This document shows positions 32,217 through 50,971 of a DNA stretch of 64,000 nucleotides, in pieces. How positions within the stretch are numbered: position 1 is the first letter of the stretch; the number at the start of each line of letters is the position of its first letter. Both the position numbers and the translations under genes were made by a program. The notes below the pieces were generated by a model. It worked only from the letters and a program-made list of their open reading frames with translations. It ran no database searches and was not told where the DNA came from. The stretch is from Halodesulfurarchaeum sp. HSR-GB (GTDB lineage Archaea > Halobacteriota > Halobacteria > Halobacteriales > Halobacteriaceae): NCBI RefSeq assembly GCF_031432215.1, contig NZ_JAVKGN010000002.1:62001-126000 (forward strand). Direction: 5' to 3'.

Positions 32217-33029
32217 ATGTCTGAGATTCAAGAATTAGTTCGCGAGCTCCAGGTGATGGGTGATGAGGAATTTGAATACTTCGTGGCGGACCTTTGGGCC
32301 GCTCATGGGTGGCAAACGGAAGTCACGGATGTGAGTAGAGATGCAGGCGTGGATGTCATCGCTCGAAAAGACCTGCCTGTGGATCAGGAAATCGTAATCC
32401 AAGCCAAACGTTATGGTAATAATTCAACAGTTTCAGGACCAGATATCCAGCAATATCATAGTCTTAAGCGTCAGGAAGATGCGGATTCAGTGGCGGTAAT
32501 AACAACGGGTGAGTTCACTTCGGACGCAGAAGAGCGGGCAGATGATCTTGATGTGAAATTGGTGGACGGTCCCCAACTCGCACGTCTGGTTAAAGAATCC
32601 GGGGGAAAAGATGTTATTGCGGATTACAGACGATCAAATACAGGACCAAGAGAGGTGGCCCAAACTGTCTCGGAATCTGTTTATTCGCTACCCCACCTGA
32701 TTTTCGGGACTCGGGCTGACGAAGGAAACCGCTTCTTTGGGATCACTCCGTTTGGATATCTCATACCTGTTAGTGTCGTCGTGTTATTGAGCTGGCTAGG
32801 GATGATTTATCCTTCATTACCATTGGCTTCTGAAACTTGGTCCACACTCGGTTGGTTATTTGTTCCGGCAGGAATGGCCCTCCTCATTGCTGATAATAGG
32901 GGAGTAGCGATCCCGTTTACGTCTAAAAAGCTGAAAAGGGGGGCGTGGGTGGTACTATCGCTATTGACTCTTGGGTGGGCGTTAATTGCGTATGTATTGT
33001 TCGTAATTGAAGACGTGACAATAGAATAG
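32217..33029 (+). CDS. Mrr-type restriction endonuclease with C-terminal membrane anchor
   Basis: A 270-residue protein. Residues 1-130 are an Mrr-cat PD-(D/E)XK domain: EFEYFVADLW, then Asp in SRDAGVDVIAR (around 43) and the QxK pair in VIQAKRY (around 63). Residues 175-265 hold about four hydrophobic segments, anchoring it in the membrane. Mrr-type enzymes cut modified or foreign DNA. A membrane-tethered form suggests action on incoming DNA at the envelope. It is coupled to the 127-residue gene upstream. An A site follows at 33195. Confidence 0.78.
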   Translation: MSEIQELVRELQVMGDEEFEYFVADLWAAHGWQTEVTDVSRDAGVDVIARKDLPVDQEIVIQAKRYGNNSTVSGPDIQQYHSLKRQEDADSVAVITTGEFTSDAEERADDLDVKLVDGPQLARLVKESGGKDVIADYRRSNTGPREVAQTVSESVYSLPHLIFGTRADEGNRFFGITPFGYLIPVSVVVLLSWLGMIYPSLPLASETWSTLGWLFVPAGMALLIADNRGVAIPFTSKKLKRGAWVVLSLLTLGWALIAYVLFVIEDVTIE

Positions 33030-34180: not shown

Positions 34181-35227
34181 TCAGCTGTTGGGGAGATCGA
34201 AGATACCATCTGGTACTGCCTTGTCGACGATAATCGAGTTCGGACGAGTACAAATTGCCTTGATCCGACCGTATTGACGGGTCGACAGTATCTCTGTTTC
34301 ATTACTACATGCTGAGCGGTAGTTATCGTAGGCGTCCTGATCGTCTTTCTCCCCGACACTCACGATCACATAATCGGGATCCATAGCCTCCACGGCCTCT
34401 CTATGGAAGCCATCCTTGCGTCCGTGATGGGCCGCTTTTAGCACATGGACGTCTTTGAGAACTTCAGGTCCCCAGTATTCTAAGATTTCATCCCACACTT
34501 CTTCTTCGGCGTCTCCAGGGAGCAAGATTGAGCGTGACCCATGTTGAATTTTTAGAACGTAGCTGTAGTCGTTATATTCTGGCTCTTTCCGATTGCCATT
34601 TTGTTCATTAAGTTCCCGAACAAACTCAGGGGATGGATGAAGGATCTCGATATTGTCGTGCTCCCAGTATTTCTTTTGTTGCCCTCGAGTCGGCTGGATA
34701 TTGTCGTGGTCCGTTTTTCCCTCTCGAATGTCTTTATAGAGTTCCCAATCGGCCCACTCATAGACTTCATACCAGTCGTCTCCATCACGTTCGCGGTTGT
34801 GATCGGTATCCCAAAACACACTGAATCCAATTTCTTCATCAAGTCGATTCAACCCCGATAGATGATCCATATCTGGATGAGTTGCGATGAAGCGCCAGAC
34901 CTTGTGCCTCACCTCGTCAAAATTCTCGTTGTAATACCCGATTGGATCATTGAGATACTCCTGAGCGTACTCTTTTGGGCTAATTTGACTTTTTTGCCGA
35001 ATTCCTGTTGAGCGGCTTTGTTGCCTGTCCTTCACAGGAAATTGAAGATAGTATTCTAGACTGTCGATGTCGTCTTCTTCGACATAGTCCTTCTGCTCTG
35101 GCCAATCGTTGATATCGATAACAGATATTCGTCCTTCGTCCCGATGCTGATCTCCAGGGTGCCGAACGATAGTACAATCACCGTGGTCGACGTTCAAAAA
35201 ATGAACCTGGAGATGATTATAGAGCAT
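34181..35227 (-). CDS. ComEC/Rec2-like metallo-beta-lactamase-fold hydrolase
   Basis: A 348-residue soluble protein. The metal motifs of the MBL fold are in order: HFLNVDHGDCT strand, HPDMDH (HxxxDH-type) near residue 118, LLPGDAEEE near 240 and AAHHGRKDGF near 265. The spacing is that of the ComEC C-terminal nuclease-like domain, without its membrane channel. It is transcribed away from a second MBL gene that starts 102 bases to the right. The divergent pair probably belongs to one system. Confidence 0.8.
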   Translation of the reverse strand: MLYNHLQVHFLNVDHGDCTIVRHPGDQHRDEGRISVIDINDWPEQKDYVEEDDIDSLEYYLQFPVKDRQQSRSTGIRQKSQISPKEYAQEYLNDPIGYYNENFDEVRHKVWRFIATHPDMDHLSGLNRLDEEIGFSVFWDTDHNRERDGDDWYEVYEWADWELYKDIREGKTDHDNIQPTRGQQKKYWEHDNIEILHPSPEFVRELNEQNGNRKEPEYNDYSYVLKIQHGSRSILLPGDAEEEVWDEILEYWGPEVLKDVHVLKAAHHGRKDGFHREAVEAMDPDYVIVSVGEKDDQDAYDNYRSACSNETEILSTRQYGRIKAICTRPNSIIVDKAVPDGIFDLPNS

Positions 35228-35328
35228 TAGATGTGAAAACGCACCAATCCCGTATGTTTCTTTTGCGGTGACAGTTCTTTTTTCGCTTTATCCGAACCTC
35301 CTAAGCGGCCGGTTAATCTAATGAATGT

Positions 35329-36210
35329 ATGGCTGCTGTTGAAATCTATATTTGGGACGTCGAGCGGGGGGATGCCATTTTCATAAAAGGGCCAGAACGT
35401 AACGCGATTATCGATCTCGGTCAGCACGCGAACGGCTTTTCGCCCAGTCGCCATATTCATACACAGCACGGTGTTGACTCGGTTGATTATCTGGTACTCA
35501 CGCATCCGGATGAGGACCACATCGAAGATCTCCCCGAATTTCAATCGTACTTTTCACCTGAAGTAGTCGCTAGACGTGACGAAGCAGACAAGTACATCAG
35601 AAGGCGGAAAAACGACCTCTATCCCGACCGTTCACACTATCAGGCTGTGACGGAGGCCTATCTGACACTCACTGACACTTACGATCAACGAGCGACCTTT
35701 TCACCGAGTAAGCCTTCCTGGAATGGCGGTTTGACCTTTTCTCATCACATCCTTTCATTAGAAGAGGCTGGAACGGCACCGATCGAGGGCTTAACGGATA
35801 ATGAGACGGTGAACCTCAACAATCTGAGTATCTTGACGGTCCTTGAATTTGGATCGTTCAAACTTGTCACTGCTGGCGACCTTGAAAAGGAGGCCATCGA
35901 AACTCTTCTGCAAAAGTCCTCGGTACAGGATGACTTACGTGGTACGGATGTTCTCATCGCACCTCACCACGGTCGTGAGAGCAGCTACACTCCGAAATTA
36001 TTCAAGTATACGACGCCAGATTTAGTCGCGATCTCGGACGCGAAAGCCGGGTCAACGAATGCAAGCCAGAAATACAGTGCGCAAGCAACTGGTGCTACCG
36101 TTTTTCGACGGTCAGGATCAACCACTAGTCGGAGTGTTGTCACGACTAGACAGGATGGTGTCATCGATCTCGGAATTGACGACGATGGGTACCGTGTACG
36201 AATCGACTGA
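35329..36210 (+). CDS. second ComEC-like metallo-beta-lactamase-fold hydrolase
   Basis: A 293-residue protein with LTHPDEDH near residue 58, VTAGDLEKEA near 182 and APHHGRES near 208. It lacks membrane segments. It resembles its divergent neighbour in layout but is not a close copy. It is followed in the same direction by a 98-residue and a 232-residue membrane protein. Such MBL plus membrane-protein sets occur in conflict systems, so a nuclease/effector role is plausible, but I cannot name the system. Confidence 0.78.
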   Translation: MAAVEIYIWDVERGDAIFIKGPERNAIIDLGQHANGFSPSRHIHTQHGVDSVDYLVLTHPDEDHIEDLPEFQSYFSPEVVARRDEADKYIRRRKNDLYPDRSHYQAVTEAYLTLTDTYDQRATFSPSKPSWNGGLTFSHHILSLEEAGTAPIEGLTDNETVNLNNLSILTVLEFGSFKLVTAGDLEKEAIETLLQKSSVQDDLRGTDVLIAPHHGRESSYTPKLFKYTTPDLVAISDAKAGSTNASQKYSAQATGATVFRRSGSTTSRSVVTTRQDGVIDLGIDDDGYRVRID

Positions 36211-38362: not shown

Positions 38363-38456
38363 TGCTAAATATGCGCGATCTATTCAGCAAATTCAGTTTG
38401 TACTCATTCAGATAATATCAAAACCGGACTGCTGTATATAGACCATCTATTCAGCA
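38363..38456 (+). repeat. 94-nt A+B double site
   Basis: An A site (38363-38389), a 40-nt spacer with TTGTACTCATTCAGATAATA and AAAACCGGAC, and a B site (38430-38456) with a perfect right arm. The right arm supplies the last two codons and stop of the adjacent histidine kinase gene (GCT GAA TAG on the - strand). The same 27-40-27 geometry recurs at 56121, 57741, 59848 and 62249. Confidence 0.8.
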
Positions 38457-41400
38457 ACAACTTCGATATCCCTAAACTCGAACCGGGCCCCTCCATCTGC
38501 TCCTTCAGTCACGTGCACTTCCCACCCATGGGCTTCGGCGATTCGCCTGACAATCGCCAACCCGAAGCCTGTTCCGTCGGGCGTATTCGAATGGCCAGGT
38601 TCGAACACCGATTCGCGTTCGTCTTCTGGAATGCCAGGGCCGTCATCCTCCACGTAGAACCCATCAGGGAGTGCTCCCACTCGCACGACCACGTCGTCCC
38701 CACCATGCTCAACCGCGTTGCGGATGAGATTCTCCAATAGTTGCCGAAGGCGGCTTCTGTCGGCTTGTATCGTTTGATCGAGATCAACAGCAACTGTCGC
38801 GTTGGCTGTATCGAAATCCTTCCAGCACGTTTCGATAAGACTGCCAACATCAACAGGTTGCATTTCGCTTACTTGTTGGCCATCTTGGGCAAGTGTCAGC
38901 GTATCCTCAATCAGGTCGAAACTTCGCTCAATACTTCTCGCTGCAGTATCCAATTGATCGCTATCATACTCTTCTTGAGCAATGGCTATCCGTCCTTTGG
39001 CGACATTCAACGGATTGCGAAGGTCATGGGAGACAACACTAGCAAACTCGTTGAGACGCTCATTTTGTCGCTGCAATTTTTCCTCTCGCTTTTGCTGTTT
39101 TGTCATCTCCATAGAAGTGATTTTCCGACTGATGATGAGATGTTGTCCAGGGACGATATCGGTTTTCGCCGTATATTCGACTGGATTCACTCCCCCGTCC
39201 GCACTGACAATCTTCATTTCATCACGTTTCATTTTGGCTGCCTGGATCTCGCCCCATTCGGCTTCGAAATCGAAATCGTCCGGCAGGAAATCCTTCATCG
39301 ACCGACCGACCAACTTCTGTTTCTCCACTCCGTATATTTGGGTGGCTTCTTCATTCACATCCAGAATGCGTGCCTCGTCATCGGTAATCGTCATGCCATC
39401 CCCGGCTTTCTTGAAGGCAGCTTCGTACTGAACCAACTCCTCCTCCCACTTTTTCCGGTCTGTGATATCAGTAATGATACCGGTCATCCGCCTGTTCCCG
39501 TTGGCACTCTCATGCACCTGACCACGGGCTTCGACCCAGACCTGATTGCCGTCCTCTGGTCGGATGCGGAACTCCGTCTCTACCCGTCCGTCAGACTCGA
39601 TAGCCGCTTGGAAGTCTCTCACTACTTTCTCCCAATCTTCAGGATGGACATACTCGGCGAAGGCTTCGATGCTCTCCTCAAACGTCTCAGGATAAAACCC
39701 GAACAGTTGTTCCATCGTGTCGGACCAGTGTACCGTATTGTTCTCCAAATCCCACCCCCAGACAGCCGAATCTGTTCCAGCAAGGACGATGTTGAGCCGT
39801 TTGGTGAGTTCTTTGACCTCTGACAGGTCCCTAATAACACCGATGAAACCCGCGATTTCGCCCGCAGGATTCCGCAGATAGAAGATATTGGTTTCTCCTG
39901 GGAACGTCTGGCCTGACTTCGTCTCATAGGTTACCGTGTACGTAAACTCGGGATCCCCTATATGTCCCTCAATCGCCTCCCCCATGGCCTCATATTCTTC
40001 CTCGCTTTCATACACGTATTTCGTGTGTTTGCCTTCGATTTCTTCGAGTTCATACCCGAACAGATCTTCGAATGCCGGATTGCAATTGATGATTTCACGG
40101 TCGGTATTAGCGACCAGAATCGCATCCTGTATGCTATTGAAAAGCGACTCATAGCGCTGTTTCTCTGTGTGGAGTTGCTGGTTCAGATCGCGTATCTTCT
40201 GCTCGCGCTCTTTGACTTCCGTTATATCCTGGCCTGCCGCGATTATCCCAGTGACGGAGTCCGAGGCGTCCCGAAGCGGTGCCGCCGAAATGCTCAAGTG
40301 TACTGGAGTCCCGTCTTTTCGCTCTCGTTCTACTTCCAAGCCGGTTATCGTTTCACCGGTTACCACCCGCTCGAACCGCTCTTGGAATCGTGAAGATTGC
40401 TCGTCGGTGAAAAGAGCCAGGGATTGTAGTTGCGCTCCGATAGTCTCCTCCGCTGGGTATCCGAATGCGTCTTCGGCAGCTTCGTTCCACAGAATGACAG
40501 TCCCCGAGGTATCTAACACCCAGATTGGTTCGGGGGACAGTTTGATGATGCCTTCGAGGCGCTGCTTGGTTTCCTGGAGTTTCCGCTCCCGTGCTTTGCG
40601 CTCGGAGATATCAAACTGGATTCCCACGAAACGAAGCGGGTCCCCTTCATCGTCTCGGTCCACGATTTTTCCCAAACTCTGTAGCCACATCCAATCGCCC
40701 TCGGCCGTTTGCAATCGGTACTCAGTTTCAAAGTATTCCGTCTCGCCTGCAGTGTGAACGTCCAATCTAGCCTCCATCTGTTCACGGTCGTCGGGGTGAA
40801 TACGCGTTTTCCAATCATCGACGTGGTGCCCGAATTCCTCCTTGGTGTAGCCGAGCATCTCGACATACTGTTCGTTGAGCTCGACTTCGCCAGTGGTCAT
40901 GTCCCAGTCCCAGACTCCCAGTTCAGCAGCCTCGACCGCCAGTTCGAAGCGTTCCCTGAGATTACGAAGGTTACGTTCGCGCTCCTTCTGCTCCGTAATA
41001 TCTCTGCTCTCTGCGATAAACCGGTCTTTCCCGTCGAGTTCTAAATGAAGCAAGTGGACTTCAACGGGTACCGTAGACCCATCCCGACGTTCATACCTCC
41101 CTTCGAATTGCCGCCGTTCACCATGATCGAAATCCGAAAGCAGTGTTTTCACATCCTCCGCCTCAACCTGCTGATCAAGCTCCCAGATGGGTGTCCCAAG
41201 CAACTCGTCTTTATTATAGTTTAAATCCTCACAAAGCCGCCGGTTTACATCAAGAATGGTACCCTCCGGGTCAAGCACATCGATCATATCCGGCGAATTT
41301 TCGAAGAGCACTTCGAGACGAGCAGATTTTTTCCGGAGGCTGGTTTCGCGTTTTTTCCGCTCGGTAATATCCCGGCTAACAATGAGATGCTGACCGGGGA

Positions 41401-42943
41401 CGATATGGCTTTTCGCAGTATATTCGATGGGGCATATCCCGCCGTCACCCGTAACGATTTCCACCTCATCGCGTTTCATTTCAGCGGCTTTGATTTCACC
41501 CCATTCGGCTTCGAAGTCGAAATCCTCGGGGAGGAATTCCCGTATCGGCCGACCAATCATTTCCTGTTGGTCGACTCCAAAAATTCGAGCCGCTTCGTTA
41601 TTCAGATCCAGAATGTGGCCTTCATCATCGGTGATTGTCATACCGTCGCCGGCCTCTTCAAAGGCTGATTTGTACTGATCACGGGCTCTGACCAAATCGT
41701 TCAGTTGCTTTTGAGCCCCTTCTGATGGGGTTTTCGGGACTAAAACCGACAGTGTCGTCCCTTCTTCTGTGGCGGTGGCATCGATGAGGCCCCCTTGGCT
41801 GGTCACGATCCAGTTCGTCAGCCACAGTCCCAACCCACTGCCATGCAACAGGGGGGTCTCCGATCCTGACCGAAAAACTGAGGCGTCCTGCTCTTCGATA
41901 CCCGGTCCATTGTCGGCGATTCGGATCTGTATATCGTCGGGATTCGCCTCGATTGTTATGTCGACGCGGGGGTTATCACCGCTGTGCTTAATGGCATTTT
42001 CGACGACTTCCTCAATGGCACGTTTGAAACTCGGAAGCACTTCGGCCGTGACCCCTTCATCTGGCGTCTCGACTGATATTGTCGCAGCGGAATTCTCCTG
42101 TCTCATCTGCGTGGCGATCTCCTCAACAAGGGCCGGGATATCGGCTGGTTCGGGGTTGGCGTCGCTGGAGATTAATTGGTCTAGTACACGGGCTTTCTCG
42201 CTGAGTTCGATGAGACTGTCAATGGTTTTCAGGGCTTTCTCCCCATAGTTGGTATCATCCAGCTTTTCAGCCATCATTTGAGTATAGCCCCGAACCACGG
42301 AGATGTCGTTACGCAAATTGTGTCGCAAGACTCGATTGAGGACGATGCTGAGGTTTGTCTGGCGTTTGAGAGCCTCTTCTTGGTTTTTCTTTTCGGTGAT
42401 GTCAATGACCGCGCCCCTGTATCCCTCGAAACCACCCTGATCATCTCTGAGAACTTTCACACTGTCGGAAACCCATCGGGTCTCACCCTCTGCTGTGCGC
42501 ACCTGATATTCGAATTGGTTGATTTCTCCGACGGCGTCCAGCGTATCAGCGTACCGCTTATATTTGTCAGAATCCACAAAAACATCGTCTTCGATGCTGT
42601 CGACGGCCTCGCATAACGCCTCCCCACTTTCGTATCCAAGCAGATCCGCAAATGCCGGATTCGCGAGGTCGTACTCGTCAAGACTCTCGGTCGCCGTGTA
42701 AATCCCTTCGTGGGCACTTTTGAAGAGCCGCTGATACCGTTCCTCCATCTCGGACGCCAATTCGAGCGTGCCCTTGGTCGTTTCCTTCAGTTCGGTTTGG
42801 AGGGATTCTTTTGCTTCACGCAGTTGTTCGTTTTCGGCCTGAAGATCGTCTATCTCCTGTGAGAGCGTTTCCAGTTCTTGGTGTAGTTCTGGGCTGCTCC
42901 GTGCTTTCACGCTCTTCAGGATTTGTTCAATCTGGTCGGTCAT
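38447..42943 (-). CDS. giant multi-PAS histidine kinase with two kinase cores
   Basis: A 1498-residue cytosolic sensor. An N-terminal coiled coil (20-70) and a PAS domain lead to a first kinase core with the histidine in LRHNLRND (around 210) and an ATPase domain with DNGPGIEE and GSGLGLWL. About six PAS domains follow (around 430-1260). A second core has SHDLRNPLN and ends with ATPase motifs DDGPGIPEDE and GTGFGLAI. I start at MTDQIEQ, which overlaps the RsbX-like gene by 17 bases; the longer frame upstream only shadows that gene. It is the last gene of the stressosome-type operon and probably its output or input kinase. No response regulator is adjacent. Confidence 0.88.
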   Translation of the reverse strand: MTDQIEQILKSVKARSSPELHQELETLSQEIDDLQAENEQLREAKESLQTELKETTKGTLELASEMEERYQRLFKSAHEGIYTATESLDEYDLANPAFADLLGYESGEALCEAVDSIEDDVFVDSDKYKRYADTLDAVGEINQFEYQVRTAEGETRWVSDSVKVLRDDQGGFEGYRGAVIDITEKKNQEEALKRQTNLSIVLNRVLRHNLRNDISVVRGYTQMMAEKLDDTNYGEKALKTIDSLIELSEKARVLDQLISSDANPEPADIPALVEEIATQMRQENSAATISVETPDEGVTAEVLPSFKRAIEEVVENAIKHSGDNPRVDITIEANPDDIQIRIADNGPGIEEQDASVFRSGSETPLLHGSGLGLWLTNWIVTSQGGLIDATATEEGTTLSVLVPKTPSEGAQKQLNDLVRARDQYKSAFEEAGDGMTITDDEGHILDLNNEAARIFGVDQQEMIGRPIREFLPEDFDFEAEWGEIKAAEMKRDEVEIVTGDGGICPIEYTAKSHIVPGQHLIVSRDITERKKRETSLRKKSARLEVLFENSPDMIDVLDPEGTILDVNRRLCEDLNYNKDELLGTPIWELDQQVEAEDVKTLLSDFDHGERRQFEGRYERRDGSTVPVEVHLLHLELDGKDRFIAESRDITEQKERERNLRNLRERFELAVEAAELGVWDWDMTTGEVELNEQYVEMLGYTKEEFGHHVDDWKTRIHPDDREQMEARLDVHTAGETEYFETEYRLQTAEGDWMWLQSLGKIVDRDDEGDPLRFVGIQFDISERKARERKLQETKQRLEGIIKLSPEPIWVLDTSGTVILWNEAAEDAFGYPAEETIGAQLQSLALFTDEQSSRFQERFERVVTGETITGLEVERERKDGTPVHLSISAAPLRDASDSVTGIIAAGQDITEVKEREQKIRDLNQQLHTEKQRYESLFNSIQDAILVANTDREIINCNPAFEDLFGYELEEIEGKHTKYVYESEEEYEAMGEAIEGHIGDPEFTYTVTYETKSGQTFPGETNIFYLRNPAGEIAGFIGVIRDLSEVKELTKRLNIVLAGTDSAVWGWDLENNTVHWSDTMEQLFGFYPETFEESIEAFAEYVHPEDWEKVVRDFQAAIESDGRVETEFRIRPEDGNQVWVEARGQVHESANGNRRMTGIITDITDRKKWEEELVQYEAAFKKAGDGMTITDDEARILDVNEEATQIYGVEKQKLVGRSMKDFLPDDFDFEAEWGEIQAAKMKRDEMKIVSADGGVNPVEYTAKTDIVPGQHLIISRKITSMEMTKQQKREEKLQRQNERLNEFASVVSHDLRNPLNVAKGRIAIAQEEYDSDQLDTAARSIERSFDLIEDTLTLAQDGQQVSEMQPVDVGSLIETCWKDFDTANATVAVDLDQTIQADRSRLRQLLENLIRNAVEHGGDDVVVRVGALPDGFYVEDDGPGIPEDERESVFEPGHSNTPDGTGFGLAIVRRIAEAHGWEVHVTEGADGGARFEFRDIEVVAE

Positions 42944-43595
42944 TGGTTTGGGTGACGACGAGGGCCGTGGCATCATCGTCGGATTTGCCATACTCTTCGA
43001 GCAATCGGTTCGCCAACGTGGCGGCCGATTCCGGTTCCCCGTTTCGGATATCCTGCCACTTCCACCGGGTCGAGATCCCGTCGGAGAACAAGGCAAGGGT
43101 AAACGATGGCTGCCAGTCCCGAGTGACAACAGAAACTTCCGGATTGTTTCCCCCGAGGACGCCACGTCGAACGATGAATCCGGTCCACTCGGGCCCGGCT
43201 ACTCTCACGTTGATATTTCCAACGTTGGCAAACGTGATCGTCCCAGCCGTCCAATCGAATTTTGCGAGGGCCATCACGACACCGCGAGTTCCGATGCAGG
43301 CCCTGTCAACTCCTCGAAAAATCGAATCTAATGACCTCTCCACATGGGACTCGACGTACTCACGAGCAGCAGTTGACGCTTTGTGGGCGCGAGGCCCATG
43401 GCCGAGGCCATCAATGACACCTACAAGGGTCGATTCGTTCCACGACTTGGAGACAAACGAATCTCCGTTTGGTTCGCCCTCCGATATTGGCCTCGTTGCG
43501 GCTCCAATCGAGACTGGAATTTGGTTTGCTGCTTCTTGGCCGTCAACGTTGTCTGGTTCTTCCTCGGTGGTGAAGTCAGCGCCCATCATTCCCAC
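42927..43595 (-). CDS. rsbX: RsbX-like PP2C/SpoIIE phosphatase
   Basis: A 222-residue PP2C-type phosphatase of the RsbX size class, without sensor domains. Metal-binding signatures are NGDSFV (around 45), VGVIDGLGHGP (around 58-68), LFSDGI (around 172) and DDATALVV near the end. In Bacillus RsbX resets the stressosome by removing phosphate from RsbS and RsbR. It overlaps the RsbT gene by ten bases upstream and the kinase gene downstream, so it belongs to one operon. Confidence 0.85.
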   Translation of the reverse strand: MGMMGADFTTEEEPDNVDGQEAANQIPVSIGAATRPISEGEPNGDSFVSKSWNESTLVGVIDGLGHGPRAHKASTAAREYVESHVERSLDSIFRGVDRACIGTRGVVMALAKFDWTAGTITFANVGNINVRVAGPEWTGFIVRRGVLGGNNPEVSVVTRDWQPSFTLALFSDGISTRWKWQDIRNGEPESAATLANRLLEEYGKSDDDATALVVTQTNDRPD

Positions 43596-43987
43596 TTCCT
43601 GATCCGAATAGTGGTCCCCTCACCTGGTTCGGTCTCGATCTCCATATCGTCCATAAGCGTCTGGGTCCCGGACAATCCCCGTCCCATGCCATTCGAGGTG
43701 GAATATTCCCCATCGAGGGCAGCCTCGGGATCGGCAATTCCCGGCCCCTCGTCCTCGAAAACGAACGTGAGGCCGTTCCGATTCTGTTCGGGAATCCGCT
43801 CCCATTCCATCGACCCTTCCCCGGCATACAGATAGATATTCCTGGCGAGTTCGGAAACGGCCGTCACGATCCGGGTGGTATCGGTCGTCCCAAGGCCGAT
43901 TTCTTCTGCTACTTCACGGGCTGTCTGACGGGCTTTGAGGATATCGTCCTCGGAATCGATTTCGATACGCCCAGTGTGATTGCTCAT
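43586..43987 (-). CDS. rsbT: RsbT-like serine kinase (GHKL switch protein)
   Basis: A 133-residue GHKL kinase very close in pattern to Bacillus RsbT: SELARNIYLYAGEG (N-box), EDEGPGIAD (G1), YSTSNGMGRGLSG (G2) and the end GEGTTIRIRKW. RsbT phosphorylates STAS proteins RsbR and RsbS on stress and is then released to a partner. Archaea have no sigma-B, so the released partner here must differ; the kinase or the phosphatase encoded next is the natural candidate. It overlaps rsbS by ATGA. Confidence 0.9.
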   Translation of the reverse strand: MSNHTGRIEIDSEDDILKARQTAREVAEEIGLGTTDTTRIVTAVSELARNIYLYAGEGSMEWERIPEQNRNGLTFVFEDEGPGIADPEAALDGEYSTSNGMGRGLSGTQTLMDDMEIETEPGEGTTIRIRKWE

Positions 43988-44352
43988 TCTGGGTCCCGGT
44001 TAACACCTAATATTTCCAGTGCCTGGTCAGTTGAGCGGGCTGTTTCCACGTTACCGAGACCATAGCCAAGTTCAGCAGCGGTGATCGCAACTTCGGGTCG
44101 CATCCCGGCAATGACGGTCGTTCCCCCCATGAGGTCGATTAATTGTGCTGTCTCGGATATGTGGCGAGCAAAAAACGAGTCCATCAACTCGACTCCTGAA
44201 ACGTCGAGGATAACGCCCTCCGGCTGTGACGTATCCATCGCCTCCAGGATCGTTTCTTGTAACTCGTCGATGATTTCGTCCTTGGGATTGTTGGGGAAGG
44301 TCCCCAACAGAATGTCGTGAATCCGAACAACATTGGCACTGTTTTGCAACAT
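43984..44352 (-). CDS. rsbS: RsbS-like STAS protein
   Basis: A single-STAS protein of 122 residues. The phosphorylation-site region GVELMDSFFARHISE aligns with the RsbS DSF(I/V)A segment and its serine. VIAGMRPEVAITAAELG matches the following helix. RsbS forms the structural core of the stressosome with RsbR. Its start overlaps the RsbR stop (TGATG) and its stop overlaps the RsbT start (ATGA), so translation is probably coupled. Confidence 0.9.
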   Translation of the reverse strand: MLQNSANVVRIHDILLGTFPNNPKDEIIDELQETILEAMDTSQPEGVILDVSGVELMDSFFARHISETAQLIDLMGGTTVIAGMRPEVAITAAELGYGLGNVETARSTDQALEILGVNRDPE

Positions 44353-45137
44353 CAGTCGATAGATACCTCCTGGAGTTCGAGTGCCGTTTTGAGACCGTCC
44401 TGCAGTGACGACCGCGTTTCGACATCGAACGCGACCCCGAGTTTTACGAGTGTCTGGGAGATGTCCGGATTAAGCCCCGTGATGATGGTTTGGCCGCCCA
44501 TCAGCTTGACCGCGTGAATCGTGTCGATAAGGTGCTGGGCTGTTTGCGTATCGACCGAATCAGCTCCGGTAATATCGATGATTGCAATCGAAGCCCCTTT
44601 TTCGGCAATTCGGTCCAGCAGTGCTTCTGTGAACGTTTCTGCCTCAGCGGAGCTCAACTTGCCGATGACCGTCGAAAGCAAGATCCCATCCCAGATTTCA
44701 ACAATGGGCACAGAGAGTTCCTGGGATTTGTACGATTTCTTTTGACCTTCTGCCTCTTGGTGGGGTTCAGCGATCTCCCGACCAATGCTTGCCACTGCAC
44801 CGTCGTTTCGTTCCGGAGTATCGATTTGGGCCCATTGGAATTCGTACGGGACACGATTCCCAGTCTTGGTTTCGAGTTCCGTAGAAAATGTGACCCTTGC
44901 CGAATCCTGGGTCACGGTATCTATAGCTTCGTTCAACCGTTCTCGCTCGGTCTCGGGGACGAGAGCGGGTACATTCAGCTCCGAAATCTCTTCATCGGAG
45001 TATCCGGTGACGTTTGTGAATTGAGTGTTCCAATCGGTGATCCTGCCTTCTGGTGTAAATACGTAGAAGAGGTCCCCAAGGGAGTTGATTGATTCTTCGA
45101 GTAATTCGGGGGGAATATTTTCTCTCATATATTTCAT
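44352..45137 (-). CDS. rsbR: RsbR-like PAS-STAS stressosome sensor
   Basis: A 261-residue protein. An N-terminal PAS domain (10-125) replaces the globin-like sensor of Bacillus RsbR. A C-terminal STAS domain (145-261) keeps the threonine site in ADSVDTQTAQHLID and has serines where RsbR carries its second Thr (ETRSSLQDG). It is the first gene of the RsbR-S-T-X-kinase operon. The start is either 45137 or a second Met three codons later. An A site lies 146 bases upstream. Confidence 0.88.
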   Translation of the reverse strand: MKYMRENIPPELLEESINSLGDLFYVFTPEGRITDWNTQFTNVTGYSDEEISELNVPALVPETERERLNEAIDTVTQDSARVTFSTELETKTGNRVPYEFQWAQIDTPERNDGAVASIGREIAEPHQEAEGQKKSYKSQELSVPIVEIWDGILLSTVIGKLSSAEAETFTEALLDRIAEKGASIAIIDITGADSVDTQTAQHLIDTIHAVKLMGGQTIITGLNPDISQTLVKLGVAFDVETRSSLQDGLKTALELQEVSID

Positions 45138-47183: not shown

Positions 47184-48410
47184 TTAACCGTCTATCCAAC
47201 GATCCATCCGAGTGTCTTCGAGAATGGTTTCTCGAACAACTTCTGAATCTTCAATCAAACGATTTTGTAAATGGATACCGCCTTTTTTGCCCATGTTCAC
47301 CCGTTCTATCTCAAGAATATCCAAGAAAGCCTGTTCTTTGAGGATGTCTCTTACTCGACGAACAGAAAGTTTGTCAATGTCTAATTCTTTGCAAATTGCT
47401 TCATACTGTGAATACACTTCGCTAGTCATGAACGCATCTTTATTGGAATTTATATCAAGCTCTGTCAATGCCAGCAACGACGCTTTAGCTTGAGTCGGAG
47501 CCCCATCAATCAATTCTCGAAATCGCCCTTTTTCAGCATGTTGCTTGGCCTGCCGAACATGCTCCTCGAGGACCTTATTTGATTCTTCCTCATAGGCAAC
47601 CTCACCCGCATGACGCAATATGTCAATTGCTTTCCGGGCATCACCATGTTCCTGGGCGCTTAATGCAGCTGCGAGAGGAATAACATCCTCAGTTAAAACT
47701 CCATCATGGAACGCATCCTCTCGATTGTACATAATCTCACGAAGTTGATTGGCATCATATGGTTTGAAAAATAGCTCCTTGTGTTGGAAACTACTCTTTA
47801 CCCGCTCGTTGAGATTTTCTACATATTGAATTTTGTTGCTGATAGCAACAACACCAATGCTAGTATCGATCTTCCCCGCTTCTTCCGCTCGAGACAATTT
47901 CATTAACACATTATCATCTTGCATCATATCGATCTCGTCAAGAATTATGATTGTAGAATTATATTGTGAATCCATAATATCCCAAAGCAATTTGTAATAT
48001 TTCGATGTGCTTAACCCAGTATACGGAACTTCTATTCCTGTTTGATTCTCATCATTCAGAGATTCTGAAAGCGAAGAAATAACCTGGGTCTCCGTTTTGT
48101 CTTCGGCACAATCGATATACGCGGTTCCTACCTCAACCCCATCTTCAGCTGCGTTTCGAGCTCGAGAAGAAACGTGTTTAGATACAAGGGATTTTCCAGT
48201 CCCGGTTTTTCCATAGATAACAACATTATCAGGTGAATATCCATGGACAGCACCATTTAATCGGGTAGCCAATTTAGATATCTCAGTATCTCGCCCCACA
48301 ATACGATCGGCTTTGGGAACGTGCCCAATCTTTAGAAGATCCTTGTTCCGAAAAATCGGATCCTCTGAATTAAACAAAGAATCGCTAACGGTGTTTTGAT
48401 CGGAGGTCAT
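47184..48410 (-). CDS. orc1/cdc6: Orc1/Cdc6 replication initiator
   Basis: A 408-residue AAA+ initiator. Walker A YGKTGTGKS is near residue 67, Walker B IIILDEIDM near 155, sensor-type ISNKIQYVENL near 205, and a C-terminal winged-helix domain with SVRRVRDIL lies near 360. It is flanked on both sides by ORB-like repeats, one overlapping its stop codon, as usual for a haloarchaeal replicon where the initiator sits next to its origin. Codon use is more A+T-rich than in the PCNA block. Confidence 0.95.
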   Translation of the reverse strand: MTSDQNTVSDSLFNSEDPIFRNKDLLKIGHVPKADRIVGRDTEISKLATRLNGAVHGYSPDNVVIYGKTGTGKSLVSKHVSSRARNAAEDGVEVGTAYIDCAEDKTETQVISSLSESLNDENQTGIEVPYTGLSTSKYYKLLWDIMDSQYNSTIIILDEIDMMQDDNVLMKLSRAEEAGKIDTSIGVVAISNKIQYVENLNERVKSSFQHKELFFKPYDANQLREIMYNREDAFHDGVLTEDVIPLAAALSAQEHGDARKAIDILRHAGEVAYEEESNKVLEEHVRQAKQHAEKGRFRELIDGAPTQAKASLLALTELDINSNKDAFMTSEVYSQYEAICKELDIDKLSVRRVRDILKEQAFLDILEIERVNMGKKGGIHLQNRLIEDSEVVRETILEDTRMDRWIDG

Positions 48411-49108
48411 TATGATATTTCTAGGGTTGGAAGCCGAATTCCTATAAAAGTATAGGGTTAACCCACCCCAGGTTTCCGTCGTAAACTAGCCGATTTCAAG
48501 GAATAGAGAGTTTATAACGGCTAACTCGGGTGTTTGATATGTTAACCCTGTTTCCGACGTTAACGCTTGTTTAGTTAATACTCACCCACCCCAGGTTTCC
48601 GTCGTTAGCTAAGATACAGTAGAAGCGAAGGTCAAAATTTAAAAACTGTCTTATTACAGGTTGTATTGCAGAATCTTAGGCAGATTAAGTTTGAACCACG
48701 GTCCTGTATTTCAACGGACGAAACGAAATTCTTCGTTTCGTCAATGAAACGAAGTTAGCTTAATGAGCGATTCTCGTGTAGCCACCTTAAAGTTATGGGT
48801 AAGTTACACCTAATGGTAAAAAACCACTTTGCATGATCACAGATTGTTTTTCTTTAACGACGGAAACGTGGGGTGTCTGTCAACATATTTGAACCGCCTT
48901 AGAGCAAATGTGATACTCAGCCTATCTCGTCTACAGATTCAAACCTTGGATGGCTACGTTCCTCGAGAATACTAAAACTCTTCAAAAACCACCAAAAACC
49001 GAACCGGTTCAGAGGTGGGTGTAGGCAAAGTGAACTACCCCACCCTACTCGGTCACGGCTGACTCCGTTCGCTACTTGAGGACGGGGACTTAGCCTGTGA
49101 GAGTTAAA
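48411..49108. other. gene-free origin flank
   Basis: About 700 bases with no supported gene. It carries four origin repeats (one inverted), A+T-rich stretches and the 10-bp hairpin. The last 150 bases (from about 48960) are ordinary intergenic sequence leading to the broken nucleotidyltransferase gene. Confidence 0.55.
48718..48741. repeat. perfect 10-bp hairpin in the origin region
   Basis: ACGAAACGAA, a four-base loop ATTC, and TTCGTTTCGT form a perfect stem. A third related word (tgaaacgaag) follows at once. It lies in the gene-free stretch between the last direct repeat and the inverted repeat, so it may be part of the unwinding or regulatory region. Confidence 0.6.
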
Positions 49109-49459
49109 TCAATCCAGTAGGTCAACTTGTGTAGATAGATACTCTTGGAGGGCTGTGACTGTCTCCGTTGAAACAGCTGACGCCCCGAAATCACTCCGAT
49201 ACCCGTGCTTGAGTTCCTCACTTTCCAATATCTCTAATCCACGTTCGAGTTGTGCTCGCAGTGCAGCCTTATCCCCTCGTCGCAGGTGGGGTGTGACAGC
49301 TTCGAGGTCGGTTTCTTCTGCAACCGCCAGGACGTCTCGAAGGTCTGTTTCGCGACCGCTGTGGAGCTTTGCCGCTACGAGGACCGCACCGTCGATAACT
49401 CTCGCCGTGGTCGTTACCGTTCCACCGCTGATTTTTTGTTGGTGACTGTTCTCGTACAA
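49109..49459 (-). pseudogene. nucleotidyltransferase gene, 3' part split by a TnpB element
   Basis: About 116 codons resembling the C-terminal part of haloarchaeal nucleotidyltransferase-fold proteins (VIDGAVLVAAKLHSGRETDLRD..LEAVTPHLRRGD). The N-terminal part with the GG[Y] nucleotidyltransferase motif lies 1.9 kb away at 51395-51484, on the other side of the inserted element. The central part between them seems short of a full-length protein, so some coding sequence was probably also lost. Confidence 0.7.
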
Positions 49460-49515
49460 ATGACATCCTCCCCGTCGTGAACGACGGGGTTTCCTCCGTG
49501 GGAGTCACACCCAGT

Positions 49516-50856
49516 CTAAGACTCGCCGGAGGCAACATTCCCGTCACGGTGGACAGTACTCGGGTCTGTGCGCTGTTCTTTGGGACTTTCGTGAGAGTGT
49601 GGTGACTCCGACCATTCGTGGTCGTCCCACTCGAACCGCACGGGCCGTGCCATCGGCCTGACTGGGTTCTCTGTGTGCCGTCTCAGGAACGTTTCTGACG
49701 CCGTGAGGTCAGCGTGGCCCTCGAAGCCACAGGGACAAGTGAGCGTGTCCTGATGCCGTATCGTTCGGTCTGTCGAACCGCATTGCGGGCACTCTTGGCT
49801 GGTCCACGCTTCCGACCGGACTTCCACCGAAATACCGTATTCCTCGGCGGTACACGCCAGTCGTTCGGTGAATTGCTTGAACGCCCAGAAGTTGTGGGTC
49901 TTGGCGTTGGTTTCGACCGACCAGTGCGTTTCGAGTACGTCGGTCAACCCACCGATATACACCGTGTCCACGCCCTCGGCGTACAGTTGTTCCATCATGT
50001 CACGGCACAATGCTTCTTGGGCGTGGTCGCGGCGACGGGTTCGCTTGCGGTACAGCCGCCGGATACGCTCGCTACTGTATCGGCCTTCTTCGAGTTTCGA
50101 CTGTAACCGGGCGATTTCTCGCGTCGTCTCGCGGAACCGCTGGAACAACTCGCGGCCCTCGTACAGGTATTGCTCGCCGGTCGTCGTGGTACAGGCGACG
50201 AGATTGTTCGCACCAATATCCAGAGCGGCCTTCTCGTCGGCCAGTGGAGTGTCCCGTGCATCAGAAACAGTCACGGGTTGCGAAGCTCTGAAGGTGCTGT
50301 CTGTCTCGTCGTACCACAGGTCCAATCGGCCCTGTTTCTCGTAGTCGGGCCAATTCGGGTCGCCAGCGATCTCCAGCCGGAGACGCCCGGTGTGGTCGTA
50401 TCGGTCTTTCAAATCGCTCCCGACCAGTATCTCAAGTCGGGACCACTCGCCCCATTCGACGGTGTATGCGTCTTTTCGGATGACGCCTTTGAGAACGCGG
50501 CCATCGTCTTCGTTGCCACGGAATCCCGGCGGCTCCGGGTGTTCCGTGACCGACGTATTTTCGGGGTCGTGGTACTGGTCTTTCAACCGGAAGAACGCCC
50601 GCCAGGCTTCGCTGTTTTTGCGAATGACCTGTTGGGCGGTGGACGCGCCGAGAACTCCTTTATATTTGCCATCGAGAGCGCCGGTATTAGCATCCCACAC
50701 GTCCTCGCCCTCGAAGCCGTCCTCGTCGTTGTACCGCATGAGGCGCTGATAGTTGACTTCGTTCCAGAGAGCGGCGGAAGCGTCCAACAGGTCCCGGAGC
50801 AGTTGCTCTCCATCGTCAGAGAGCGGTCGCACGGCGAACGTGTTGGTACGCTTCAT
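49516..50856 (-). CDS. tnpB: TnpB-family protein lacking the RuvC-II glutamate
   Basis: A 446-residue TnpB from [11 protein letters not shown] (about 15 codons of frame precede it without similarity). RuvC-I has [11 protein letters not shown]. The zinc finger has CPQC and CPCGF. RuvC-III has [10 protein letters not shown]. The RuvC-II position reads [11 protein letters not shown], with Gly-Gly where active enzymes have Glu-Asp. The following [18 protein letters not shown] is kept. It may be cleavage-dead and act by RNA-guided binding, or use an alternative glutamate such as the one in DVLETHW. Related haloarchaeal proteins with GDL at this place exist as far as I recall. Confidence 0.85.
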
Positions 50857-50899
50857 GCCACAATTTTTACGTCTCCACGTCAAATAAGTCTTATGAGAC

Positions 50900-50971
50900 A
50901 TGGCGACTGAAACGCCACTAACCTGCTACATCTGTGGGCAGACCAACGACGACTGGATGACAGTTGAATGA
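50900..50971 (+). CDS. tiny CxxC frame, first of three coupled cistrons
   Basis: A 23-residue frame ([19 protein letters not shown]..) divergent from tnpB. Its stop overlaps the next start as ATGA. It contains one CxxC and the next frame contains another, so the two could be halves of one zinc-ribbon protein separated by a frameshift. The start is 44 bases from the tnpB start, so the two directions share a promoter region. Confidence 0.4.

Follow-up and report, generated by a model that had tools for sequence, protein, structure and literature searches.

The large sensing hubs called stressosomes are best known for the release of RsbT that switches on SigB. At the molecular level, RsbT activates RsbU by turning a flexible linker into an ordered coiled coil, and histidine kinases with RsbU_N, the RsbT-binding domain, adjoin stressosome genes in some Proteobacteria (PMC12143880); most of the downstream signalling proteins examined are devoid of this domain (PMC9237108). 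In Gram-negative bacteria, an RSTX module followed by a two-component system in place of SigB is a described arrangement (PMC9237108, PMC10014275). The presence of these genes in archaea has also been reported: the rsbRSTX module of four genes is described as present in "even some archaeal species" (PMC9237108), stressosome genes occur in "many bacterial and archaeal lineages" (PMC8942246), and Pane-Farre 2017 is cited for archaeal species with stressosome genes (PMC10014275). Together with our genome samples, these reports rule out that the locus presented here is the first stressosome in an archaeon. Of the novelty claimed in a preliminary description of this DNA, what stands is that we found no paper in the open-access literature in which an archaeal stressosome is studied biochemically. 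The operon is of a known kind, and it occurs in hosts for which such operons were known from genomes but had not been studied.

The window, that is, the whole stretch of 64,000 nucleotides analysed, carries five genes (R-S-T-X-K) head to tail on its minus strand, from 45137 to 38447, with overlaps of 1 nt (R/S), 4 nt (S/T), 4 nt (T/X) and 17 nt (X/K). RsbR (44352..45137, 261 aa) consists of an N-terminal PAS and a C-terminal STAS domain (Pfam STAS 5e-15, PAS_4 2e-10) and matches the stressosome RsbR 7o0i among solved structures (5e-20); the fold matches of its predicted structure (mean pLDDT 73) are YtvA, RsbS and the Listeria stressosome. Light sensing of the LOV type, considered because YtvA came top in the fold search, is not claimed for RsbR, since its PAS domain, inspected by eye, is devoid of the LOV cysteine motif, which we take to be NCRFLQ. 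RsbS (43984..44352, 122 aa) is a lone STAS domain, close to the RsbS structure 6jhk (3e-14). RsbT (43586..43987, 133 aa) is a GHKL ATPase of the switch-kinase type (HATPase_c_2 6e-14); among solved structures it matches SpoIIAB alone, and weakly (5e-4), and the relatives retrieved by alignment search, at about 50-60% identity, belong as RsbT genes to rst operons, those of bacteria being about 47-54% identical. RsbX (42927..43589, about 220 aa) is an RsbX-type PP2C phosphatase (SpoIIE 4e-9) that matches structures of such phosphatases (3zt9 4e-16; B. subtilis RsbX 3w40 8e-12), with its ATG placed within the T stop and an alternative GTG at 43595 also possible. The last gene, K (38447..42943), encodes a histidine kinase of 1498 aa, in which an N-terminal helix is combined with many PAS domains and a pair of HisKA-HATPase cores, and which we propose as the output; its start is most likely the ATG at 42943, rather than the GTG at 43165 with which the program-made open reading frame begins.

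The phosphosites required of these proteins are kept. Both Ser59 of RsbS and Thr197 of RsbR, the equivalent of Thr205 in B. subtilis, are invariant across the aligned operons. The equivalent of B. subtilis Thr171 is Ser163, a position occupied by Thr in most aligned operons and by Ser in the window's clade, and the spacing of 34 residues between Ser163 and Thr197 is the same as that between Thr171 and Thr205 in B. subtilis RsbR. In acid signalling by Listeria, the sites equivalent to Ser59 and Thr205 are needed and the one equivalent to Thr171 is dispensable (PMC8942246). The ATP-binding residues of RsbT (N box, G1 and G2: Asn49, Asp78-Gly80-Gly82 and Gly101-Gly103) are invariant in the RsbT alignment, RsbX retains its motifs GDS, DGLGHG, SDG and DDD, and both kinase cores of K are intact (His208 and His1306). 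By every sequence feature tested, this is a stressosome RSTX operon. The preliminary description had correctly recognised the five overlapping genes, the four Rsb identities, with which Pfam and PDB matches and key residues agree, and the archaeal host, which belongs to the class Halobacteria and to the same family as Halanaeroarchaeum sp. HSR-CO. It needs amending in two respects: the "giant histidine kinase" contains two complete HisKA-HATPase cores, and the conservation of phosphosites holds for Thr197 and Ser59, the optional Thr171-equivalent being Ser163.

When compared with described systems, the operon shares with RSTX-D1-D2 of Vibrio vulnificus (PMC9237108, PMC10014275) the R-S-T-X order, with RsbX straight after RsbT, the lack of a SigB cascade and a PAS-containing histidine kinase as the next gene, which here overlaps rsbX by 17 nt; it differs in the sensor of RsbR, a haem globin in Vibrio and a PAS domain in the window, and in K, which contains two kinase cores and is not accompanied by a linked response regulator. 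The same order is found in bacterial plasmid operons of the type R-S-T-(RsbT-like + PP2C)-kinase (Deinococcus radiodurans MP1, Variovorax, Paraburkholderia, Sphingomonas and Xanthomonas vasicola), where X is usually followed by a kinase gene, in many cases one with an ETNRG-type helix; there, however, X is a fusion with an RsbT-like domain, a second of which is often present in the effector, whereas the window's clade has neither. In the case of the SigB stressosome of Bacillus subtilis (RsbR/S/T/U/V/W/X), RsbR, RsbS, RsbT, RsbX and the key phosphosites are common to both, but the window is devoid of RsbU, RsbV, RsbW and SigB, RsbX comes after RsbT, and a PAS domain takes the place of a non-haem globin sensor. 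Finally, archaeal RSTX operons from the other classes of the phylum (L146-L165) resemble that of the window in being archaeal R-S-T-X, but their effector is often an RsbU_N histidine kinase and their lineages in the tree are separate.

A search of archaeal genomes for adjacent Rsb genes, as suggested earlier, found R and S side by side in 11 of the 391 haloarchaeal genomes sampled and in 24 of the genomes sampled from the phylum's other classes, the named carriers including Halonotius roseus, Halonotius aquaticus, Halobaculum halophilum and Haloarculaceae archaeon H-GB1-1. In each of the 12 haloarchaeal loci inspected, the order is R-S-T-X and a signalling gene comes directly after X, overlapping it or within about 80 nt; the 20 loci of other classes show R-S-T and then, in most, X, before which a second T or an RsbU_N gene is interposed in some. 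In a tree of R, S and T, the haloarchaeal operons form a single clade (support 98) that groups with a Methylococcaceae MAG (100), whose contig is possibly mis-binned. This grouping suggests that the haloarchaeal operon was probably acquired from bacteria, the bacterial sampling being composed of plasmid records and one scan of 80 loci dominated by Bacillales. A single archaeal origin was considered and is rejected by the tree (p-AU 1.9e-75, from a quick search with several long branches); together, these data indicate that archaeal stressosomes derive from more than one exchange with bacteria.

We regard it as rather probable that RsbT in this haloarchaeal operon is released onto the N-terminal helix of K as its output. 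For the assembly of the particle, the phosphorylation steps, the contact between RsbT and K and the direction of control, we infer the following course. RsbR, with its PAS sensor, and RsbS would form a STAS scaffold holding the switch kinase RsbT, which upon a signal would phosphorylate Thr197 of RsbR and Ser59 of RsbS, leave the scaffold and act on the product of the next gene, until RsbX strips the phosphates and resets the switch. The released RsbT would attach to K at its long N-terminal helix, which leads into the first PAS domain, and would alter the activity of the first of its kinase cores, with K then signalling via a response regulator encoded elsewhere. Neither RsbU nor a match to RsbU_N, K included, was found in the host genome, in which the only two SpoIIE-family genes are both rsbX, and K is therefore the most likely target of RsbT. 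In favour of this reading we count the gene identities and key residues, the overlapping frames, the order and the adjoining signalling gene found in 12 of 12 loci, the second copy of the operon described below, which is under purifying selection, the linkage of the helix to RSTX, the fact that the gene at K's place in archaea of other classes often bears RsbU_N, and the known action of RsbT through the ordering of a linker helix in its target (PMC12143880). Against it count the degenerate helix motif of the window's clade, its X without an RsbT-like domain, the helix-less Halonotius operons and, in Vibrio, an RsbT-D1 interaction that went undetected (PMC9237108). An output rewired through the kinase, as the preliminary description supposed, is the best-supported reading, but this wiring is not specially archaeal, as an RSTX module with a two-component output is known in Gram-negatives.

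The helix in question opens the haloarchaeal effectors with the pattern ELxETNEGxxALxxEL, and no RsbU_N was found in haloarchaea. It occurs in nine of the 391 haloarchaeal genomes, all of them among the 11 with RSTX, and every match is the gene after X; the only exceptions among RSTX carriers are two Halonotius operons (L027 and L030), which are followed, 66-79 nt further on, by the gene for a helix-less histidine kinase of the PAS/GAF type. Several of the carriers (L028, L029, L033 and L035) are PAS histidine kinases, followed by a response regulator in L033 (HalX) and L035. In three genomes of one haloarchaeal genus (L031:11718-14060, also L032 and L034), the helix stands on a GAF-BAT-HTH_10 regulator of the bacterio-opsin-activator type, the ATG of which overlaps the rsbX stop, a possible direct link from stressosome to transcription factor. 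We also searched 72,556 plasmid records with the haloarchaeal and bacterial versions of the helix. The former matched two records, both RSTX, and the latter 24, of which 21 coincide by coordinates with STAS matches and three, which were inspected, have RST. The helix thus lies in an RSTX operon in 26 of the 26 records matched, although the independent number of bacterial ones is small, because near-identical plasmids of Deinococcus radiodurans make up 15 of the 24. In several bacteria the effector has an RsbT-like domain before the helix, a layout that fits the helix contacting such a domain. The same composition is seen in another archaeon of the phylum, where the kinase after rsbX (L164:8023-11784) is formed by an RsbT-like ATPase, an ETNRG helix, PAS repeats and a kinase. 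Proteins of 144-167 aa that follow rsbX in three further loci (L158:8231-8734, L160:8138-8572 and L161:8396-8845) have the helix and a helical region without the ATPase domain.

We propose that the helix is a docking linker for released RsbT or for the RsbT paralogue in X. That docking of RsbT, or of the RsbT-like domain in X, might be a general role of the helix, as an alternative to RsbU_N, is a broader and more tentative suggestion, which we hold to be somewhat short of an even chance. In the archaea of other classes, whose effector often bears RsbU_N, an RsbU_N-type profile picks up ten downstream genes, eight of which had been used to build it, and three of the three tested pass the Pfam cut-off. 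Across 36 loci, 17 combine the helix with a fused X, 14 RsbU_N with an unfused X, three the helix with an unfused X (the window's clade), and two have RsbU_N with no X found. That the helix and the RsbT-like domain of X had repeatedly evolved as partners was considered and rejected, as this clean split corresponds to just 2-3 changes on the tree and may be simple co-inheritance.

This possible co-inheritance lends some weight to the reading that the RSTX switch works while the helix, an ordinary inherited signalling helix, is not the route to K, with RsbT transiently phosphorylating K or an unlinked protein, as has been proposed for Vibrio outputs without RsbU_N (PMC9237108). The degenerate motif in the window's clade points the same way. 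Residues 18-76 of K (42716..42892, minus strand), the proposed docking linker, are predicted by AF2 to be a single continuous helix running into the PAS domain (six sequences, modest confidence); their motif is ETTKG, and the conserved frame L-EL-T-G-L-E is retained in the alignment. The helix of K matches the profile at 2e-15 when its own clade is included but is not found by a profile from which the clade is left out (E 0.83), and that of K from plasmid pHSR-CO is matched by a query from outside the clade at E 7e-3. However, the helix is absent elsewhere in haloarchaeal genomes and is retained where the output has been swapped for a BAT/HTH_10 transcription factor, and we consider this reading rather unlikely. 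Within the preferred reading of the helix as a docking site, the link from switch to K may be modified in the window's clade, given its degenerate motif and an X that has lost the N-terminal RsbT-like domain present in the X proteins of the other haloarchaea: RsbT may be sufficient on its own, or the contact may have diverged.

The new element in these loci is the RSTX-linked helix, which appears to be undescribed, together with its presence on a transcription factor in a single archaeal genus. They suggest a testable route to the output for stressosomes without RsbU_N effectors, namely the conserved helix that opens the next gene, which the archaeal case places on a transcription factor. If the proposal is true, the docking helix would explain how stressosomes control outputs without RsbU_N, and archaea, which to our knowledge have no sigma factors, would plug a bacterial stress switch into histidine kinases and, in one genus, into a BAT/HTH_10 factor, bypassing sigma factors. 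The many PAS domains of K, its lack of a receiver domain and the absence of a linked response regulator from the window could also be read as those of an input or feedback sensor, bringing additional signals into RSTX or controlling expression of the operon, with the output of RsbT encoded elsewhere, but the response regulator after the kinase in two relatives and the replacement of the kinase by a transcription factor in one genus make this quite improbable.

The operon lies on a plasmid-like replicon, the window being part of a 170-kb contig (C2), and the same genome has a second RSTX copy on a contig of 105 kb (C3). The two copies are 97% identical in S, 89% in T, 86% in R and 76% in X, and the second K is longer and rearranged. 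Among named relatives, the nearest is pHSR-CO, a plasmid of Halanaeroarchaeum sp. HSR-CO, and dN/dS values of 0.06-0.27 among the two copies and this relative indicate purifying selection. That the operon is a decaying plasmid passenger, with recognisable genes and a switch dead in this lineage, as its secondary replicons, sporadic distribution, the lost N-terminal domain of X and the split K of HSR-CO might suggest, is hardly likely in view of these values and of the intact catalytic motifs and overlapping frames. In pHSR-CO, K is annotated as two genes (L166:10408-14574), with the C-terminal kinase core set apart from the rest. Consistent with a secondary replicon, an Orc1/Cdc6 replication protein and an IS605 OrfB-type transposase are encoded upstream of the operon (window 47184-50901). 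On its other side, two adjoining genes (34181-36210) match the candidate defence family PDC-M48B, of the metallo-beta-lactamase type, with 35329-36210 at 1e-49, and the region 32217-33029 encodes a protein with an Mrr-type restriction endonuclease domain (Mrr_cat 8e-28).
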